From: Lampris incognitus
Taxonomy: Eukaryota; Chordata; Actinopteri; Lampriformes; Lampridae
Reading direction: 5' to 3'
NCBI RefSeq assembly: GCF_029633865.1
Contig: NC_079224.1
Location: forward strand, 16,272,890 to 16,336,889
DNA: 64,000 nt
Shown here: in pieces, positions 1-12,200 of the stretch
Layout: every line of letters starts with the position of its first letter
Numbering within the stretch: position 1 is the first letter of the stretch
Translations under genes and position numbers: made by a program
Notes under the pieces: model-generated
Seen by the model: the letters and a program-made list of their open reading frames with translations, nothing else
What the model was told of the DNA's origin: nothing
Database searches by the model: none

Positions 1-527
1 AGGCTTCTCGCGCCGGGCCTCCTCTCCCTCTCTCTCCCTCCGTCTCTCCCTCTCTCTCCCTCCCTCTGCAGAAGGCAAATGAGCCGCTTGTCAGAAGAGA
101 CTTGAAGTGCCGTTTTCCTGTCACAGCACGCGGGAACGGAGCATAACTGCGACAATTTCCCTTCACACTTCCAGCTGCGATTGGAACTTCAAGTGTCACA
201 CTTACTTCTTATGTTTGCATTAAAAAAAAGCGCAGGAGAAAGTATCACCGGGGGGGTGGGGGTGGGGAGCTGGGTGGGGGGTGCTGAATATCGAAGGTTT
301 CATGTCTCAGGTGATTCCCCCCCCCCCTCAAACACCTGTTTATTAATCTGGAATCGATGTGATAATTGCAACTTGCAAAATCTCGGGGTAATGCACCATA
401 TTGGATATGGAGGAGGTGCAAATGCGTTTGCTAACCCGGTATTGCTGGTGCAGCGGTTTCCTGACAGGCTGGCGAGCAGCCGTCGAGGATGGGTCCCTCG
501 CAGCATCCGGGGCATCCTCAAGGATTA

Positions 528-651
<124 letters not shown>

Positions 652-1282
652 ACATATAAAGAGGAATAAAATAACAGTATTCCCAGAGCAAGTGAGAAAT
701 ATCCTCCACAAGCTTCTGTGGGGGGGGGGGTGTTGTCTTTGTTCGCCTTCCCGAGCAGATCCAGGACACACACCTAGCAGGTCAGCTCCTCTGCAGCCAT
801 CTGTACATCGCCCCCTTTAGTTACCTTCGCTTTAATGAAATTCCCAATTAAGTATACCTCCGCAAATTCACAAAACAACCCCCGTGTAACGTTTCTTAAT
901 GAATTCCTTTGTCTTGAGCTGGCACAGATGAGGCGCGAGAGTGGCACATGTACGGCGGGTGCATTAGTTAGGCAAACCCATGTGATGGTGCCCGTTCACG
1001 GCTGACAGAGCGTCAGTATCCTCGGGCATGGCTGCCAAGCTGCCAGTCTGTGCCGTCACACCTTGCTGCTTTTAAAGATTGCCCTGTAGAGACGGGGTGG
1101 GTTGGGGGTGGGGGGGTTAGTAACGGAGGGCCTCCCGTTTTTAACAGCATGCATTCTGCAAACCCAAGAGAGTTTATGACTCAGGATCACTGCCAACAAC
1201 TGCCCAACAGAATGGGGGGGTGGGGGTGGATGGGGGTGGATGGGACATGGAGATCGCAAGGAGAGGTGGGGGTAGCATGCAT

Positions 1283-1283
<1 letters not shown>

Positions 1284-1359
<76 letters not shown>
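1284..1359. repeat. (CA)n microsatellite
   Basis: Pure CA tract of about 38 units. Confidence 0.97.
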
Positions 1360-1363
<4 letters not shown>

Positions 1364-1442
1364 ATTGGATTTGTAAACATGCACATATAGAGTAAGGCCC
1401 CTACCGGTCACATTCATAGGAGGAGGAGGTATTTACCTGCCT

Positions 1443-1446
<4 letters not shown>

Positions 1447-1516
<70 letters not shown>
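1447..1516. repeat. (GT)n microsatellite
   Basis: Pure GT tract of about 35 units. It is complementary to the CA tracts on both sides, so the strand can fold back here. Confidence 0.97.
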
Positions 1517-1518
<2 letters not shown>

Positions 1519-1658
1519 CTGGAAGGAGAATGTTTAGCAGCTGGGGCCAATCTTGGGGTGTATACCCAACATACCTGCATGTCAAATCAATTCATCAAGG
1601 CTGCTCTATAACATGTTATGGGATAGGAGAAAATGTGCATGCATATGTACCCCTGCAC

Positions 1659-1660
<2 letters not shown>

Positions 1661-1744
<84 letters not shown>
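1661..1744. repeat. (CA)n microsatellite
   Basis: Pure AC tract of about 42 units, 145 bp from the opposite-sense GT tract. Confidence 0.97.
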
Positions 1745-1750
<6 letters not shown>

Positions 1751-2352
1751 CCACATTGCCTTTTCTCAGTAATCCACAGAAACGGCGGTGGATGGCAGAA
1801 TGTAAATGAGCTAGTTATTACACAGCAACGTTCATCAAGCTGAGCTGGAAAGACTTCAATGGCCCTGATGAATATGCATGCAAATTTGTTAATTAAGTTA
1901 ATTACTCTGCTGAAAATTCATTTGTCTTCCCAAGGACATTTCTGCAATGATTTTAACATGTTTCTGCCATTAGTCATGCACTCTGCTATTGAAAATCACT
2001 CCGGTCCAATTTTTGGGGGAAAGTTGTCGCCAAAAAGGGGGTGTAGATGACCTAAAAAGGAAGAGACTGAGGGGTGGGACAGGTAGAGGACGGCATCGTG
2101 TCAGTTACCTTGGATGATGTGGGCAGAGGAAGGTGGCAGATGGTGCAGAAGGGGAGTAGTTAGGGAGGAATAAACCAAAGTGGCAGTCCGACATGACTCT
2201 CCATCGGTGGTTGGATGGCGACTTGTCATCGTCAGATTTGCCGTTACTTGTCTCACTGTGGCCAGCTACGGTAAATATGGATGCATTTGAGTCTGCAACG
2301 AGGCGGTGTTGACAAAAGCATCTGCCAAATATCCTACTTTATCATAGATTAG

Positions 2353-2365
2353 CTTTATGCATGAG
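2353..2365. repeat. Left target-site duplication of the composite element
   Basis: CTTTATGCATGAG, an exact match to 4988-5000. Confidence 0.8.
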
Positions 2366-2552
2366 TCAAAGAGAGGTGAATCAGTTCATCCGGACATCGG
2401 GAGGAGTATTGAGAGAAACGCTTCATCGCTCACCTAAGTGACCCCTTCGGTGTCAGCTGACTGCAGGTATCCCCACCCTTATAAACAATACAGTGGCATA
2501 ATGACCGAAAACAATTATTGATTTCATATGTAAATTGCCGTGACCATTAACT

Positions 2553-4562
2553 AGACATACAATGGCCGTGTGTACTATTCACAGAGGATTGGGGAATGTT
2601 TGCAATCACAGCATTGCAAGATGGCGACAGATGTGCTCTTAGCCCCCCCCCCCCCCCCGGTTCAGGGATGGTTGTTCCCTCTTCACTTAGATGGCCTCTT
2701 TGACTCCCCCATTCAAACCAGCATTCCTCCCTATCAAGGAGGTGCACATCCTCATCCTTGAAAGAGCGGCCCCTGGTCTGTAGATGGGTGTAGACTGTGG
2801 AGCCCTGGCCTTGAAAGAAAGAGAGGCCCCTGGTCTGTAGATGGGTGTAGACTGTGGAGCCCTGGCCTTGAAAGAAAAAGCGGCCCCTGGTCTGTAGATG
2901 GATGTAGACTGTGGAGCCCTGGCCTTGAAAAAAAGTATGGCTCCTGGCCTGTAGATGGGTGTAGACTGTGGAGCCTTGGCCTTGAAAGAAAGAGCGGCCC
3001 CTGGTCTGTAGATGGGTGTAGACTGTGGAGCCCTGGCCTTGAAAGAAAGAGAGGCCTCTGGTCTGTAGATGGGTGTAGACTGTGGAGCCCTGGCCTTGAA
3101 AGAAAGAGCGGCCCCTGGCCTGTAGATGGGTGTAGACTGTGGAGCCCTGGCCTTGAAAGAAAGAGCGGCCCCTGGCCTGTAGATGGGTGTAGACTGTGGA
3201 GCCCTGGCCTTGAAAGAAAGAGAGGCCTCTGGTCTGTAGATGGGTGTAGACTGTGGAGCCCTGGCCTTGAAAGAAAGAGTGGCCCCTGGCCTGTAGATGG
3301 GTGTAGACTGTGGAGCCTTGGCCTTGAAAGAAAGAGCGGCCCCTGGTCTGTAGATGGGTGTAGACTGTGGAGCCCTGGCCTTGAAAGAAAGAGAGGCCCC
3401 TGGTCTGTAGATGGGTGTAGACTGTGGAGCCTTGGCCTTGAAAGAAAGAGCGGCCCCTGGTCTGTAGATGGGTGTAGACTGTGGAGCCCTGGCCTTGAAA
3501 GAAAGAGAGGCCCCTGGTCTGTAGCTGGGTGTAGACTGTGGAGCCCTGGCCTTGAAAGAAAGAGCGGCCCCTGGCCTGTAGATGGGTGTAGACTGTGGAG
3601 CCTTGGCCTTGAAAGAAAGAGCGGCCCCTGGTCTGTAGATGGGTGTAGACTGTGGAGCCCTGGCCTTGAAAGAAAGAGAGGCCTCTGGTCTGTAGATGGG
3701 TGTAGACTGTGGAGCCCTGGCCTTGAAAGAAAGAGCGGCCCCTGGCCTGTAGATGGTGTAGACTGTGGAGCCCTGGCCTTGAAAGAAAGAGCGGCCCCTG
3801 GCCTGTAGATGGTGTAGACTGTGGAGCCCTGGCCTTGAAAGAAAGAGTGGCCCCTGGCCTGTAGATGGGTGTAGACTGTGGAGCCCTGGCCTTGAAAGAA
3901 AGAGAGGCCCCTGGCCTGTAGATGGTGTAGACTGTGGAGCCCTGGCCTTGAAAGAAAGAGTGGCCCCTGGCCTGTAGATGGGTGTAGACAGTGGAGCCTT
4001 GGCCTTGAAAGAAAGAGCGGCCCCTGGCCTGTAGATGGGTGTAGACTGTGGAGCCCTGGCCTTGAAAGAAAGAGTGGCCCCTGGCCTGTAGATGGTGTAG
4101 ACTGTGGAGCCCTGGCCTTGAAAGAAAGAGTGGCCCCTGGCCTGTAGATGGGTGTAGACTGTGGAGCCCTGGCCTTGAAAGAAAGAGTGGCCCCTGGCCT
4201 GTAGATCGGTGTAGACTGTGGAGCCTTGGCCTTGAAAGAAAGAGCGGCCCCTGGCCTGTAGATGGGTGTAGACTGTGGAGCCTTGGCCTTGAAAGAAAGA
4301 GCGGCCCCTGGCCTGTAGATGGTGTAGACTGTGGAGTCCTGGCCTTGAAAGAAAGAGTGGCCCCTGGCCTGTAGATGGGTGTAGACTGTGGAGCCTTGGC
4401 CTTGAAAGAAAGAGCGGCCCCTGGCCTGTAGATGGTGTAGACTGTGGAGTCCTGGCCTGGCGTGTTAGCTCTCCTGTGTTGTGCCGTCGTCTTGACCAGC
4501 ATCTGTTTAGTTTCCCCATGCACAAGTCACGGCAATCCTCCCGGCACTTGGCGGGAGTGTTG
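2553..4562 (-). pseudogene. GIY-YIG endonuclease domain of a Penelope-like element, disrupted by a tandem array
   Basis: Read on the minus strand, the first part near 4560-4460 gives KCREDCRDL followed by QHRRANT. The last part, near 2770-2560, gives SFKDEDVHLLDREE followed by a frameshifted GGGLRAHLSPSCNAVI. These are the recognisable pieces of the GIY-YIG nuclease domain that follows reverse transcriptase in fish Penelope-like elements. Between them, where one 19-residue segment (GQDSTVYTHLQARGRSF) is expected, about 30 copies occur. The signature Tyr-Ile-Gly is altered (LCMG, with a frameshift), so the nuclease is dead. Open frames of more than 650 codons run through the array in more than one phase, because the unit is 57 bp and has no stop on this strand; I do not regard them as expressed proteins. 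Confidence 0.65.
2762..4457. repeat. 57-bp minisatellite, about 30 units
   Basis: The unit, read on plus, contains CTGTAGATGGGTGTAGACTG and CCCTGGCCTTGAAAGAAAG. I count about 30 head-to-tail units. Most are 57 bp, and at least six are 56 bp with GATGGTG instead of GATGGGTG. Sequence variants (CGGCCCC, AGGCCCC, AGGCCTC, TGGCCCC; CTGGTC or CTGGCC) are interspersed. The 57-bp ones keep a 19-codon frame on the minus strand. Unit identity is high, so the expansion looks recent. Confidence 0.95.
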
Positions 4563-4564
4563 GA

Positions 4565-4776
4565 ACGGTTGAGATGTGTATTTTCCAAACATCGCGTCTC
4601 AGTTGCTTTCAAACCACAAAAGACGCTGCGCCAGAAGTTGGTCCGCCCCAAGGATCAGGTCCCCCCGGCACAAACAGAGCAATATAGTGTACGCTGTTAA
4701 GTGCCGGGAGGATTGCCATGACTTGTACATTGCAACGATTCCCCAGCCCTACGTGAATAGTACACATGGCCAGTGA
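4565..4776 (+). pseudogene. Second, deleted fragment of the same retroelement ORF on the opposite strand
   Basis: The plus strand gives RCVFSKHRVSVAFKPQKTL and RQKLVRPKDQVP, then after a frameshift NIVYAVKCREDCHDLYI. These are the residues linking reverse transcriptase to the GIY-YIG domain. It then jumps directly to ATIPQPYVNSTHGQ, the extreme C-terminal segment, also present in the minus-strand copy as IPQSSVNSTHG. The body of the nuclease is therefore deleted here. The fragment lies head-to-head with the minus-strand copy, with the junction near 4560. Confidence 0.6.
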
Positions 4777-4987
4777 AGCGCTAGTTAATGGTCATGGCGG
4801 TTTGGACGTGAAACTGGTGGTTGTTTTCGGTCATCGTGCGACTGTATCGTTTATAAGGGTGGGGATACCTGCAGTCGGTTTACACTGAAGAGGTCACGTA
4901 GGTGAGTGATGCAACGTTTCTCTGTCCAGATGAACTGATTCAACTGGCTTTGATTTCCTTACCTGGATTATTGAGCATGCATCAAGA

Positions 4988-5000
4988 CTTTATGCATGAG
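4988..5000. repeat. Right target-site duplication of the composite element
   Basis: CTTTATGCATGAG, an exact match to 2353-2365. Confidence 0.8.
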
Positions 5001-5249
5001 ACATTGTTGGGTACCACATAGTACAACGCAGGTCACTGGACGACACATTCGTTCAAACAATTTGCTTCCGGAAAAAAAATTAGAGATTAATGATAGACAA
5101 TATCAAGCTGAACACAAAAAAAACCCTCCAGATTTGCTGTATCACGTAGGAATCTGGAGAGACATTAAAACAACTTTTATTGGATTTGACACGTTTAATC
5201 GCGTAATGATGCTGACACATTGTGTTAGTTCGACTGAGCTTAAAATGTT

Positions 5250-7300
5250 TTGCAGCTGATTTTCCTTTGTGCTCAGCATCTGGCGGCTCTCCTGTCAGTG
5301 TCCCAACCACAGTCGGCCAGCATTGATGGAGTCCAGTTGCCCTGATACCTCTTTCCCACGGTCCCAATGTCCTGGTGAAACCTTCCCCCATGTTCCTCAC
5401 TGACCGCACCAAGATCAGCAGGGAAGAAGTCCAAGTATGAATGCAGGAAATTGATTTTCAATGACATGTTTGCACTTCATGGTTTTGTGTGCTTTAAGCA
5501 TGTTGTCAAGCAGCTCAGTGTAGTTTTGCTGCTCTGTAGTTGCCAAGAAAATTCTCAGCAACATCCTTAAATGCCTCCCATGCTATTTTCTCTGGCCCCA
5601 CCAGCAGATCTTCTAACTTCCTGTCGTTGATGACCTGTCTGATTTGTGGACCAACAAAAATGCCTTCCTTTATCTTAGCATCAGTTATTCTTGGGAACAT
5701 CTATCTCAAATAGTGAAATCTATCACCTTCTTTCTTCGTTGCTCTCACAAAAATGTTCATCAATCTGAGTTTTGTGTGACGAGGTGGCAGAAATATCTTT
5801 GTTGGGTTGATCAGTGGTTTATAAGCCACGTTTCTCTGCCCTGGAACTAAATGCTTACGGAGCAGCCAGTTCTTTTTAATGTAGTGTGACTCTTTAGCAC
5901 GGCTATCCCCTTCACAAAGGGAACGACCCTACTTTGTATATCCGAGCTGCATTCCCAGTAGCAGTGCCACTACTTTTAAATCACCACAGATGTTGCAGTC
6001 GTAACTGTTTTACTGTATGTGTTTCAACAACAGTTCCAAGTTATTGTAGGTTTTTGTGTACTGCATAGCTCTGGGTAGTGAAGGGTGGACTTTGCCACTG
6101 TGTAACAGCACCGCTTTCAGGCTTAACTTTGACGAATCTATAAAAAGACGCCATTGTTGTGGGTCAGGGGGCACGGTGGTGCAGTAGTTAGCACGGTCGC
6201 CTCACAGCAAGAAGGTCCTGGGTTCGAGCCCTGGGGTAGTCCATCCTTTGGGGTCGTCCCGGGTCATCCTCTGTGTGGAGTTTGCATGTTCTCCCCGTGT
6301 CTGTGTGGGTTTCCACCGGTTGCTCCAGTTTCCTTCCACAGTCCAAAGAAATGTAGGTCAGATGAATCAGCTATACTAAATTGTCCCTAGGTGTGAATGT
6401 GTGATTGTGTGTCGGCCCTGTGATGGCCTGGCAGCCTGTTCAGGGTGTCTCCGCGCCTGCCGCCCAATGACTGCTGGGATAAGCTCCAGCATCCCTGTGA
6501 CCGTGAGATCAGGTTAAGCAGTTTGGATAATGGATGGATTTTGTGTGTCATGCACACAACCCAAAGCCATGAACAATCCATCAATGTCAGTGCAGAAACA
6601 GAGATTGTCAATCAGCATAAAGAAGTTTGTCAAATGTTCTTGATGGTTCAGAAAGATAGAAAATTTTGTTCCCTGGTGACCGCAAACCCCATCCTTGCAA
6701 TCTTGAAGCAAGTAGTTCTGCTTAAGCGTTTGACAAATCTAAGTCCCTGGCCAGGTCATTTAATTCTGGCTGTGTTATCAGATGAGGATAACCAGGCATA
6801 AAGTTCTCAACATCTGGATCAGTGTCGTCTTCCACATCTGGTTCATGCGTTGTGGCATCTTCATCTGCCTCATCTAGGCTCCATGTCTCTGGTGGCTTCG
6901 GTACTGGCAAACTGTCATGATGTGGCACCAGTCTCATGGCTGAAGGCAGATTGGGGATATTCAATAGATTTCTTATTTTTAGTAGAGAAGCCAGGTACAT
7001 TGGCAAGACAGAAGTAACAGCCCGTCGCGTGATCCTCCTGTTCTCTCCATATCATTGGGACTGCAAATGGTACTGACTTCCAAGTACCTCTGAGCCAAGC
7101 TCTCGGGTTGACCGCACATGTTACACAACAAATGTGAGGAGCCCAGAGTTTCTCTTGGTCACCAATTTTACATCAGAAGTAGAGCTCATATGCTTTCTGA
7201 ATACGTGCAGTCACGGTGCGTCTTTGAGCCTTAAGCGTTTACTCGCCGCAGATGTAACAGAATGTATGGCAGCTGTTGCAATATTCAACACATTTCTGCT
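5250..7300 (-). pseudogene. Decayed gene of a widespread animal mobile-element family, split by a SINE
   Basis: The minus strand from about 7290 to 5250 gives an ordered series of conserved blocks with stops and frameshifts between them. They are: a Cys-rich N-terminus (FCYICGE, then APHICCVTCAVNPRAWL, PMIWRE and CYFCL); an acidic linker with PHLITQPELNDLARDL; CTDIDGLFMALG; WRLFIDSSKLSLKAVLLH; FPRITDAKIKEGIFVGPQI; NFLGNYRA; and finally LHSYLDFFPADLGAVSEEHG, RFHQDI and KRYQGNW. I recognise this block order from a repetitive protein family common in fish, cnidarian and arthropod genomes. I do not know its transposon superfamily with certainty. SINE copy A (6167-6540) lies between CTDIDG and WRLFIDSS. 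Confidence 0.6.
6167..6540 (+). mobile_element. SINE family 1, copy A (full length)
   Basis: The tRNA-like head has an A-box-like motif (here TGGTGCAGTAG) and a B box GGTTCGAGCCC. The body includes GTGTGGAGTTTGCATGTTCT and AAATTGTCCCTAGGTGTG, and the tail CTGCTGGGATAAGCTCCAGC ends in GATAATGGATGGAT. It is flanked by TTGTGGGTCA (6157-6166) and TTGTGTGTCA (6541-6550), a 9/10 target-site duplication. It interrupts the decayed mobile-element gene. Confidence 0.85.
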
Positions 7301-10300
7301 GTATTAAATCTTCCTGAACACAACAAATCCCATTGTTACGTATACTCACTATGCTATTGCCTGAAGAACATGTGCATCAACATGCGTCCAAACAGCGTCT
7401 GTAAATGTGAGCAGCTTTTGTAGCCTGTCTGCCAGCATCTAACCTGACTAAGCATGCCCAGCCACGCCATAGCGCCTACTGAGTGTATGCCCAGGAAGCC
7501 TTGGACTGATCTAAACAGCTTGCTTTGTGGGCAGTGTACTAGTAGACTTAAAATATGATGGGATAGCCCCAAAAAATAGGTTATATCTACAAAACGGTAT
7601 GTGATAGGACAATTTCAAGGCGATTTTCACGATCAGCAGCCCAAAATCCACAGAATACACCCAAAAGTGTTCAGGAAGTGAACTCTTCGTTGTCCAGCGA
7701 GTGGAACAACCAAACAAAACTTCAGAAACCTGTACACGAACAACCTTAAAAGTCAGTTAGAAAGGGAGAAAAGCTCAAAAGTGATGAGAAGAGGACAGAT
7801 GGGAGAAAATATACCAAGGAAACATGCTGTTTGACACATCAACAAGCTAGCCTCACAGGTGGTCACCAATACTTTATGGTAGCCCTGACTGAACGGCCAG
7901 ATGTTTGATTTTTAATTTTTTTTAAATATAACTACTGAATGTGTTTTTCTACCTGCTGAAAGCAGGTAGGTGAAATCTGGCAAACCTTTTGTTGCAGAGA
8001 TCTGATGATATGCCTAGTTTATACAGAGGAAAGCTGCATATGCTCTGCATGGGAAAATTGAAGGTACAAGGAAAACGCTCTTTAGTCAAAATATGGGGGG
8101 GGGGCTACTCAACAGGGACGCTTGCAAAACGTTGTTTAACATTTTAAATCCCTTTTACACGAACCGAGTGCCATCTTTATTGTTGGTCTGTCCATGTGTG
8201 CGCCTCTGTCTCAATTTGGAAGGCCACACGTGGCCTGTCTGGTTCATCCAGTAAACTGCAATGGGACGAACAACATCACCCCGACGCACCCGTTCCCCCT
8301 AGTGGAGGAACGCAGCATTGCAGGGTCAGAATGCAGGTCGGCCTGCTTGGCATAAATTTCATGACCATTAGATGGGAGGCTTTGCAGGATATAATGCAAA
8401 ATGTGTTGTCCCCCCCCCCAGATTCGTGATCGAGGCTGTGCACGCTCACATCTGTTAGGGAGAGTGTGAGCACATGCCTGTCAAAAAAGTGGATCTAATT
8501 GTGTATTTGTGTTACCATTGCATTCCCGTGACAAATCTAATAAGGATAGGATGCAGAAAGGAAATGTCACACATGCTAATGTATGTCATATGTGGATAAA
8601 GCCATGTATGTTTTTAAACTAAAACATATGTACCGTTTGTAATGACGAGGATGACACCCTTAATTGATTTGCACGCCATTCGCTGACAGGCTAGATTAAC
8701 AAGCAATAAGACTTTATTAGCAAGATGCACAAAGTACACGCGTTTACACATTTGCAAGGCATTAATTAGATTCACATATGGTCAGAGTAATTATCATTAC
8801 AGATAGCTGGAATTAAAGACAGACATGGTTGCAGAAACAGAGGGAAAGTTGCCCTGGAGAAGAGACGAGCGGAGAGGAGGATGTGGGGCAGGAAGGGCTA
8901 GCAACAGAGGCGACACAAGAAAACAACAACAGCTGTTTCGCTTGTGGCTAAAAACAGGATCGAACAACAACAACAACAACAACATTATTTGATCAAATGT
9001 TTTTTTTCTTCCCTGACTTGAAGATAAGTAATGGCAAACCCTCAGACTTATAGATGTGGAGTTAGTAGACATTTGGAGGTTCAGCAGAGGGGAATTTTTC
9101 CACTTCTCTGTCTTTCTGCTTTCTTTACTCACTCACTCACTCACTCCTCTATAGGGTCACGGGAGGCTGGAGCCTGCCCCAGTGTACTTTGGAGACACCG
9201 AGACTACCAGTGCATCGCAGGGCCGACACCCAGATGCACCATGTCACTGCCATTCATAACTATAGTCCAGCTTACCTGTCACGAGCGGGCATGCATGAGT
9301 TTAGATTATGGGATGGGGGGGGGGGGGACACCACAGCACTCACACTGGACAAGTGCTGACAAAACCAAAATGGAGCCGTACGCTGGTTTGTGATTTGGCT
9401 GCTCATCAGCGTGCAACACACACACACTGCCTCGCAGGTTTGAATCTTCTCATTCAACCATCCAACAACACCCCCTCCCCCCCGCCCCCCTCAGATGTCA
9501 ATAGTGTTTTTATATCTGTCAACTGAGTAGAAATCCCACAGCTTCCTGTTTGTAGCTTTTAATCATTTTTCATCACCGTCACAGACATATAAATGACATG
9601 CAAGCATACGATCGCCCACGTACACACGTGCTCACGCATTCGCACATGCATGCACAAATGTGCCAATGCACGTACAGCACATCCACACACACACACACAC
9701 ACCTACACACACACACACCTACACACACCCACCCACACACATGCGTGCATACACACACGCTAACTGCAAGCATGCTGTCCCACTGCCTGCCAGAGAATGT
9801 GTGAGCACACCATGACTGCTCTGCCCTTGACATGTATCCAATCATCCAAGCGTGCTGGATGGTTTAGTTAATTAAGCTTAATCTACCCCCAGAGAGAGAT
9901 AGGAGTGCTGTTACACTGGCCCACCGAGCTGTCCCCATCCACTCTCTTCTGGACCCCCGTGGAGCCATCGGGGCTGCACTACTCAACCATGTTTGAGTGC
10001 ACTGACAGAACTGGGAGCAGTGGATTATGCAGTGATCTAGTATATTTTTTCGAGGAGTTGAGGGAAAAAAAACAACTAAACGCATATTAAGAAGAATAAT
10101 AGTCAAAAAATATGCCTGTGTTATGTTAATTACAGGAAAAAAATTACACAGTTCAGCTACGTATTTGGGTACAAAACACCTATCGATACTAGTCTGATTC
10201 TAGTTTGACTACTGATTGAACGGTCATTTGAATGTGAGACTGCAGACTCATTAAACCATTAATCAATTTAAAGCTACTATCCTGACGATTTACTTTGCCA

Positions 10301-10363
10301 GCAAATGTCCATCTGGATACTTTCTATCCCTGGCGTGTCCAAGGCAACATCTAATCCACAAAT
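7301..10363. other. Unassigned intergenic stretch
   Basis: No protein similarity or convincing splice-bounded exon was seen. It holds poly-G at 8095-8103 and 9316-9327, (CAA)n near 8970, a diverged repeat scrap near 9140-9230 with a GGGTCACGGGAGGCTGGAGC motif, and the CA-rich tract at 9684-9750. Confidence 0.5.
9684..9750. repeat. Interrupted (CA)n tract
   Basis: CA repeats broken by CT and CCCA interruptions, which suggests an older, degrading microsatellite. Confidence 0.9.
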
Positions 10364-10373
10364 ATTGGGATCA

Positions 10374-10547
10374 CGATCAAAGGCGGTTGAGTCAGTTCAT
10401 CTGGATACAATGTTTACTGACAGATACGTTTCATCACTGTGTTTCTTCAGAGTGATGAAACGTATCTGTCAATAAACATTGTATCCAGATGAACTGACTC
10501 AACCTTCTTTGATTTTCTTTCCTGGATTGTTGAGCATGCGCCAAGAC
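10374..10547. mobile_element. Short hairpin insertion derived from the Penelope-like element end
   Basis: Left and right halves are near-perfect inverted copies folding about 10443: GAGTCAGTTCATCTGGATAC at 10391 and its complement at 10484-10503. The stem runs about 55 bp each side. The 3' extension GATTTTCTTTCCTGGATTG then GAGCATGCGCC matches the right arm of the element at 2366-4987. ATTGGGATCA occurs on both sides (10364-10373 and 10548-10557), a 10-bp TSD. Confidence 0.7.
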
Positions 10548-10581
10548 ATTGGGATCATGAACGATGTTGCAGTTCACTTTT

Positions 10582-10968
10582 TTTTTAATTTATTTATTAT
10601 TTTTCTCCATCTCTTTTTCTCCCCAATTGTATCCGGCCAATTACCCCCTCTGTCTCTGCTCCTCCCCCTCTGCCGATCCGGGGAGGCCTGCAGACTACCA
10701 CATGTCTCATTTGAATACATGTGGAGTCGCCAGCCGCCTCTTTTCACCTGACAGTGAGGAGTTTCACCAGGGGCACGTAGCGCGTGGGGGGGGGATCACG
10801 TTATTCTCCCCCCAGTTCCCCACCCTCCCCCGAACAGGCGCTACTGCAGCGACCAGGACACACACACCCACATCCGGCTTCCCACCCGCAGACACGGGGA
10901 TTCGAACCGACGAACCCCGTGTTGGTAGGCCGCTACGCTAAACAGGACGACCGCAGTTGTTCACTTTT
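10582..10968 (-). mobile_element. SINE family 2, copy 1
   Basis: Minus orientation. The tRNA-like head is at the right end and carries the B-box complement (GGATTCGAACC, near 10899). The body shows the complement of the conserved AGGTGAAAAGAGGC/TGGCGAC region. The A/T-rich tail is at the left. GTTCACTTTT at 10572-10581 and 10969-10978 is the TSD. Confidence 0.8.
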
Positions 10969-10978
10969 GGGGTTACTG

Positions 10979-12200
10979 TCAGGTTGCAGGACTTTCAGGG
11001 CTACGCATTTTTACATCGTCGCCATAGCGGCCGAATGCGGAGGAATAGAGCAGGGGCAGTGACGGGGCTGGAAGGAGACGTGAAGTTGATGTGAGTACCA
11101 GGTATGCAGAGGGGACCTTCACTAACAAATACAACAATATCAATCACTAAAACTCTGCGTCCTTTTGTACGGCGTCGGTGTTTCGTTTTGAGGGGATCTC
11201 TGGCGTTTCATTGGCCAAACGCCAGTGCAGTTGTCGTCATCATCACGTGTCGTGCAATTAAACAAAAACGACGGTCTGCGGGATTCGGGATCACGCCACG
11301 CTGCATAAATTCAAGTAAAAGTAATCCATAGTCGGAGAGGACTGATTAGTCAACCAGGTTTATTTCTCATACTACATGGGCAATGCATAATACACAGCCA
11401 TTAAGTGTTTCACTTAACATTCACTACGTGGCCAACACGCGGAACATTCCTGCATGATTAACACCGAACAAGAGATGCTTCCAGTTTACAGCAAGCAACT
11501 GGCACTACATACACAACACAACACAACACAATACTGCACGTAATTTAATCGTCATTTTCCCTTTTGTCCTTCGTTGGCCTCCCATCAGCAGCTCACAGTG
11601 GCCGTTACTTCTGCACATTCTTTGTTGCCATCTTGTGGGTTGATTTGTGCAATACAGTGACAGGAACCTCGTGATGGTGTCGCCAATCGGCTTTGGTAGA
11701 CTTACACATTGAAAAAAACCCCCCCAAAACAAAACAGAGCTTCAAAGATAAAAATGAGTGCCTTTGTTACGCCTATGCTAAAAATGCTCTGCTCTTTATT
11801 TGGGGGAGTGACAGCCGTCTTGCATTCAGCCGCTGTGTTCCTCAACAGTGTTGCAAGCAGCTCGGGTGTGTGTCTGCAGGCCGCTGCTGTACTTTCTGTT
11901 GTTCCCACGTGCCCTTTGTTCCGCAAACAATATAGCACCCGGGCTCGTTTCGAGAAAGGTGACTAAACAATGTGGAGTGGGGTTAGGGCGGAGTGTTGCA
12001 TAACATTATGACCTATACGCCCCAACGGACTTTACGTTGGGTGGGGATGCTGAAAGCTGAAAATACTGCCTCGGGAGTTATCTTGACACACGTGCAACCC
12101 CCCTCTCCTTCCCCCCAGACAAATACACATTACTGGGTTATCAAAAGTGATTGCAGATGTGCAGAATTGTGGGTAAGTGCATTTTATTGAAGTACGAACG
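10979..12200. other. Unassigned, relatively GC-balanced stretch
   Basis: No recognisable protein or repeat. The segment 11000-11330 is richer in CpG than its surroundings and has a donor-like GTGAGT at 11092, so it might hold a noncoding first exon. I have no confirming evidence. Confidence 0.35.

Follow-up and report, generated by a model that had tools for sequence, protein, structure and literature searches.

The question of how tandem repeats begin is a difficult one, since each usually goes back to one old event. The stretch of 64,000 nucleotides of the Lampris incognitus genome analysed here (the window) raises that question for a 57-bp repeat on its minus strand, at 2760..4458, whose units carry a short coding segment of a mobile element: did this minisatellite arise where it now lies, and is it alone of its kind? 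In our judgement, the array was probably born locally from a short GIY-YIG-type endonuclease segment of a dead, truncated retroelement copy, and it is one case among hundreds in the genome.

TRF delimits a single array (2760-4458; period 57, 29.9 copies, 95% matches, score 3013), much as the original prediction had placed it (2762..4457, about 30 copies), and its head-to-tail units (57 bp x 29.9) lie within the range of about 10-100 bp of a minisatellite. Split on the minus strand, the array yields 28 full units, 23 of them 57 bp and five 56 bp long, the shorter ones having lost one C (ACACCCATC changed to ACACCATC); by type, 22 units are in-frame (CCC), seven carry the one-base deletion (CC) and one is unclear. 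The first unit is fused to the upstream flank, and the last, continuous with the downstream flank, measures 53 bp. Pairwise identity between units averages 0.952, and units at lags 3, 4 and 5 resemble one another more closely than they do after shuffling (p = 0.012, 0.019 and 0.038, uncorrected for the 12 lags), a weak similarity that later block turnover of a few units might underlie.

The junction between units reveals how the register is built. Each 57-bp unit consists of 53 nt of the endonuclease segment followed by a 4-nt duplication of TTTC that the last unit lacks: the array reads CTCTTTCTTTCAAGG, and the downstream flank reads CTCTTTCAAGG. At the array-internal junctions, CCAGG (or CCAAG) comes after CTCTTTCTTTCAAGG; at the downstream flank the reading is CTCTTTCAAGGATGAGG, and the overlap amounts to three letters (AGG). 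The unit had been described as exactly 19 codons of the domain; with 53 nt of domain and 4 nt of duplication, that figure is partly accidental. Instead of a flanking direct repeat of 5-10 bp, as envisaged for minisatellite origins by Haber and Louis, the 57-bp register shows the 3-nt AGG overlap and TTTC. Since these two features alone make up the junction, slippage on a long repeat seems to fit the start of this array less well than template switching or an end-joining event that left a small insertion.

The endonuclease domain continues on both sides of the array. On the minus strand, the upstream piece, LVHGETKQMLVKTTAQHRRANTPGQ (4459..4560), is a single copy with a stop directly before it, recognised from the unit split, its translation and its relative at locus L032; the downstream piece, SFKDEDVHLLDREECWFEW... 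(2547..2759), is likewise single, undergoes a frame change and runs up to the frame end, and the same piece follows the segment at other loci. QHRRANT and SFKDEDVHLLDREE occur once each, one per edge, as anticipated for domain pieces flanking the array a single time. The element's 3' part (2366..2606, minus strand), identified by inverted arms and by the 36-bp arrays of other copies, holds one unit of the motif found in those arrays; counting the window, 36 of 40 loci have a 3' part downstream. Head to head with this copy stands a second one on the plus strand (4561..4953), known from its translation and from the inverted arms (2412-2606/4729-4923 and 2366-2396/4923-4953). Its linker, KTLRQKLVRPKDQ...DCHDLYI, is joined to the frame end ATIPQPYVNSTHGQ, and the repeat-forming segment is absent. 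An inverted 3' part was also seen upstream in 15 of 40 loci, and head-to-head copies occur in the window, L012, L015, L022 and others.

The host copy is already broken on either side of the array, by the stop before LVHGETKQ upstream and by the frame change after DREECWFEWG downstream. The host is a dead, truncated retroelement copy, and its order of linker, GIY-YIG piece, frame end and 3' part resembles that of Penelope-like elements, so that Penelope-like is its probable name. Penelope-like elements have a telomerase-like reverse transcriptase upstream; here the part covered upstream of the endonuclease is a linker-like piece. The upstream piece of L032 matches the Pfam GIY-YIG family PF01541 with E = 3.3e-4 and 21.3 bits, slightly below the curated cut-off of 22.6; the 37-residue second-half piece of L022 had no Pfam match. 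Many Penelope-like elements have a hammerhead ribozyme in the pseudo-LTR; an Rfam search of window positions 1-12000, at gathering scores, gave no match, the copy here being without its 5' part; no solved structure matched L032:1758-2036; and a pattern search for relatives in viral contigs matched four stretches, none of which was confirmed. Elsewhere in the window, nearly pure long (GA)n and (CA)n/(TG)n microsatellites cluster at 533-645, 1284-1363, 1446-1516 and 1661-1755, and a further broken mobile-element-like gene lies on the minus strand at about 5280-7050, with frame pieces such as YLDFFPADLGAVSEEHGGRFHQDI. An insert in that gene, at about 6170-6540, resembles a tRNA-derived SINE.

We searched the genome, as represented by one assembly (1.48 Gb, 537 contigs), for the 57-bp register. 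The junction CTCTTTCTTTCAAGGCCAGGGCTCC, with up to two mismatches, has 28 matches, and all 28 fall inside the window array. Without TTTC and with at most one mismatch, it is found at 21 places, 20 of them in the window array and one elsewhere that, judged by eye, lies outside the element. Confinement of the junction to this array makes it most likely that the 57-bp unit arose at the window site. Arrays of this sort are difficult to assemble, and either the array or its copy number could be an assembly artefact; we consider this highly unlikely, given that the units vary along the array and that the flanks and the inverted second copy are continuous in sequence.

Did the array grow as a repeat domain of the endonuclease, kept in frame by selection on the protein? 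The unit is open in all three minus-strand frames, with 659, 655 and 570 codons across the array, in keeping with the long frames in several phases and the phase-shifting 56-bp units noted originally, and the total length of the array preserves the original phase. Three of the first four 31-bp arrays sampled in the family also restored the frame, which had suggested in-frame selection. This candidate was rejected on the flank-to-flank distances of 52 copies, single and tandem, which fall into phases 0, 1 and 2 in a ratio of 18/18/16 with no preference (14/12/15 for the 41 tandem copies among them). In addition, a series of 31-bp units shifts through each frame in turn, the host copy is interrupted on either side of the array, and the 13 substitution-variable columns of the 57-bp unit are spread over first, second and third codon positions as 3, 4 and 6. 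Selection for the repeats as protein is therefore scarcely credible, and the growth in frame that had been singled out as meaningful gains no support, given the 53 + 4 composition, the phase-breaking 56-bp units and the evenness of the phases. Pfam matches of the open frame across the array, including DUF6167 and GBV-C_env above curated cut-offs, were taken as chance products of repetitive sequence. The proposed local birth would not require any function of the encoded peptide.

The window array belongs to a large family. The upstream flank ACAACACAGGAGAGCTAACACRYCAG has 5136 copies in the genome at up to three mismatches (control 0), and at 1250 places the two flanks stand at the distance of a single segment (control 0), so that the single-copy endonuclease segment that the original prediction proposed to look for exists in abundance. 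From the first 100 places listed of the 5136, all exact and 95 of them on contig C1, we fetched 80 copies, all on C1; 50 are single, 24 tandem and six interrupted by other sequence. The tandem copies comprise nine with a period of about 31 bp, nine of about 18 bp (one at 16) and six of mixed type. Genome-wide, the flank is followed by a second unit at a spacing of 31/32 in at least 299 copies (control 0), and the 18-bp-type pattern is found in 90 (control 0), a few of which have other spacings. A separate set of 39 other array loci, out of 40 scored from 2449 candidates, was picked by likeness to the window array and hence consists of long arrays. Units of 31 bp predominate here; L009, L014 and L029 are mainly of 32-type, L015, L021 and L047 are mixed, L043 has a 29-bp period and L040 an 80-bp higher-order unit. 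L009 (2431-8379) is a 6-kb array behind which the dispersed repeat GGGCCGGTGTGGGTGCAGGTTTTTGTTCC... appears twice, each time at an identical point, as though it had been captured and then amplified along with the array; in L079 and L124 the segment is broken up by a repeat of similar kind.

The existence of related arrays at hundreds of sites could also mean that an older satellite was captured by the element and then dispersed, and four of the 39 other array loci are without a recognisable upstream flank and one without a downstream flank. This history has a near-negligible probability. At the 1250 single-spacing places the segment lies inside the endonuclease frame, with the domain continuing on both sides, and 50 of the 80 copies picked by the upstream flank alone are single, which renders an older satellite unnecessary. 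Neither the same array at many sites without endonuclease flanks nor an older 57-bp satellite family was seen: of the 39 related array loci, 35 keep a recognisable flank upstream and 38 keep one downstream, and the 57-bp junction was seen in the window alone. With a local junction, abundant single segments and flanks that are the two halves of the domain, the idea that a minisatellite was born from the coding segment of a mobile element is upheld.

A more serious question is whether the arrays of the family were born many times or inherited from one source. One source element may have gained a tandem segment of the 31-bp type and spread array-bearing copies, with array length drifting afterwards by unequal exchange and the 31-type single copies representing collapsed arrays. 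A test on the sampled copies of clear type, leaving aside six interrupted copies and three of uncertain type, found 23 tandem and 23 single among those with the one-base deletion (CC); all 25 in-frame (CCC) copies were single (Fisher p = 3.4e-6). Every clear-type array in the sample is thus CC, and one array-prone lineage could have spread instead of many independent births. The commonest unit is moreover identical at many loci, and CC units occur also within 32-type and mixed arrays. Outside the sample, in-frame units do form arrays, at L009, L014 and L029 and in the window. The mean pairwise flank distance is larger for 31-type singles (0.209) and 31-type arrays (0.191) than for in-frame singles (0.143), although the median distance from the column majority is close across the three classes (0.089, 0.072 and 0.077).

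Four lines of evidence speak against inheritance from one array. First, registers of 57, 31/32, 29 and 18 bp and mixed ones are hard to derive from a single array. Second, at 36 of 39 loci, counting the window, units resemble those of their own locus more than those of other loci (the exceptions are L018, L021 and L037), and L013 and L029 have private unit variants. Third, when the 24 in-frame single copies were compared with arrays and 31-type singles combined, over about 170 bp of downstream flank, no column reached a difference above 30%, and nearest neighbours by this flank mix the classes. Other substitutions marking an array-bearing subfamily were looked for, and the candidate was rejected for want of a diagnostic column in these 170 bp. 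Fourth, inheritance leaves the window array unexplained, its junction being found nowhere else. Descent of the arrays from one source is accordingly possible but doubtful, and we read the family as the product of many local births, with inheritance possibly contributing among the 31-bp arrays.

Why this segment? A search for direct repeats inside the single segment, at spacings of 8 to 69, gave as the longest exact one the 8-bp CAGGCCAG, whose occurrences stand 32 bp apart when the segment is in frame and 31 bp apart once one C has been lost; 31/32 is also the period of the commonest arrays. When fuzzy repeats over 14 bp are considered in the 31-type segment, a spacing of 9 (11/14) beats one of 31 (9/14), and this spacing-9 repeat may bear on the 18-bp arrays. 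The first duplication would start from such short repeats within the segment, and units would then be added locally through slippage, unequal exchange or break repair. The 8-bp repeat does not account for the window array, because the 57-bp register makes no use of it. As the best reading of the family as a whole, a retroelement segment with built-in direct repeats repeatedly seeds minisatellites, mostly near chromosome ends.

The relation to chromosome ends was assessed on 18 chromosome-sized contigs other than the three largest seen (C1, C2 and C3, of 155, 152 and 118 Mb). Exact in-frame single copies lie at a median of 16.1 Mb from the nearest contig end (n = 51, three within 10 Mb), exact 31-type single copies at 11.6 Mb (n = 51, 22 within 10 Mb), 18-bp-type copies at 5.7 Mb (n = 55, 51 within 10 Mb) and long arrays, a class picked by similarity to the window array, at 1.8 Mb (n = 27, 26 within 10 Mb). 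Each step from one class to the next is significant at p < 3e-5, and 36% would be expected within 10 Mb under even placement. These figures leave out the copies on C1-C3 and small contigs (17 of 68 exact in-frame singles, 15 of 66 exact 31-type singles, 35 of 90 18-bp-type copies and 12 of 39 long arrays), and the exact-match classes under-count copies where sequence evolves fast; with one mismatch allowed, there are 299 in-frame and 248 31-type singles. On C1, the first 9.5 Mb hold 12 of 32 31-type singles versus one of 62 in-frame singles (among the first 100 of the 1250 places; p = 4.8e-6).

C1-C3 also have interior array zones, for example at 44-51 and 72-93 Mb of C2 (among the matches listed, 100 of 299). 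On C1, interstitial TTAGGG runs lie in or near array zones, at 7.4-8.3, 47.9, 52.7, 78.7 and 145.9 Mb, and telomeric repeats are present at the right end. From the interior zones and the interstitial telomere repeats we suspect that these contigs are fused ancestral chromosomes. The window array is an interior exception to the trend: its contig measures 51.8 Mb, and 16.3 Mb separate the array from the contig end. Its closest relative by downstream flank, among the copies compared, is L085, a single in-frame copy at a distance of 0.06. Array orientation relative to the telomeres, inspected by eye in the 31/32 matches (100 of 299 listed) and the 18-bp matches, ran in opposite directions in the two, and we make no claim of a bias; at C21:38.4-45.9 Mb, all seven 18-bp-type matches are on the minus strand.

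Tentatively, and with slightly less than even confidence, we propose that position, not sequence, decides birth: the endonuclease segment of roughly 40-60 bp would stay single in chromosome interiors and become minisatellites of varied periods nearer the ends, in-frame singles giving way to 31-type singles, then to 18-bp arrays and last to long, mostly 31-bp arrays.

The element gives rise to a second minisatellite, of about 36 bp (TGACTGCAGGTACCCCCACCCTTATAAACAATACAG), in its 3' part. Arrays of it have grown at L012, L014, L017, L024, L026 and L033, and the motif is single in the window, at 2458-2493. With one mismatch or none, its junction has 26,901 matches in the genome (9195 + 17,706), against 0 in the control. 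The first 100 exact matches listed are all on C1, between 0.3 and 6.5 Mb or between 51.5 and 53.9 Mb. Of the 36-bp clusters listed from the leftmost stretch of C1 (0.3-6.5 Mb), all but one are on the plus strand.

The family thus offers thousands of near-constant single and tandem copies in one genome, so that the origin of minisatellites can be examined in one chromosomal setting against another, and it is an example of mobile-element coding sequence that, dispersed over the genome, has seeded hundreds of repeat loci. If position is indeed what decides, the family would amount to a genome-wide natural assay for local instability.

That minisatellites are born in mobile elements is already known, and the following comparisons draw on parts of the cited reports. 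Direct repeats of 5-10 bp have been proposed as the start of minisatellites (Haber and Louis 1998; via PMC6947457, PMC3389668); the commonest 31/32-bp arrays agree with this origin in matching the spacing of the 8-bp CAGGCCAG, whereas the window array departs from it with its 3-nt overlap and 4-nt duplication, as does the presence of many starts in one dispersed sequence. In human, 7,276 of 31,472 minisatellites were traced to transposable elements; the portion of that report consulted describes no single segment with several registers and a chromosome-end gradient (PMC3389668). Penelope-like elements have a C-terminal GIY-YIG endonuclease and occur as tandem and partial copies (PMC11167929); the present family resembles them in its tandem and partial copies and probably in the endonuclease at the C-terminal end of the frame, and differs in that no hammerhead ribozyme was found in the truncated copy here. 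Among the matches listed from the open-licence literature, at the level of titles and the beginnings of abstracts, no minisatellite in a GIY-YIG endonuclease segment was found.

In mouse, transposon-like LTRs have produced minisatellites (Kelly 1994), and SINE B1 has yielded a VNTR family (Bois et al.; PMC6947457). As here, minisatellites arose within dispersed elements more than once; in contrast, the present case involves a coding endonuclease segment, hundreds of loci and several registers. The soybean element Gmr9/GmOgre, with arrays between the coding region and the LTR (PMC3305785), likewise shows one retrotransposon family with minisatellites at many loci, but in Lampris the arrays come from a coding segment, which is single in the majority of sampled copies. 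From what is described for them, the Ogre-derived satellites of Lathyrus sativus are the closest known case in logic: short arrays pre-exist in the 3' UTR of a dispersed element and have expanded mainly in one chromosomal compartment, the primary constrictions (Vondrak et al., PMC7004042), whereas in Lampris the compartment is the chromosome ends and the starting material a single-copy coding segment. What the present family adds is the origin in a coding endonuclease segment, the several registers and periods, the thousands of single and tandem copies side by side, and the chromosome-end compartment.
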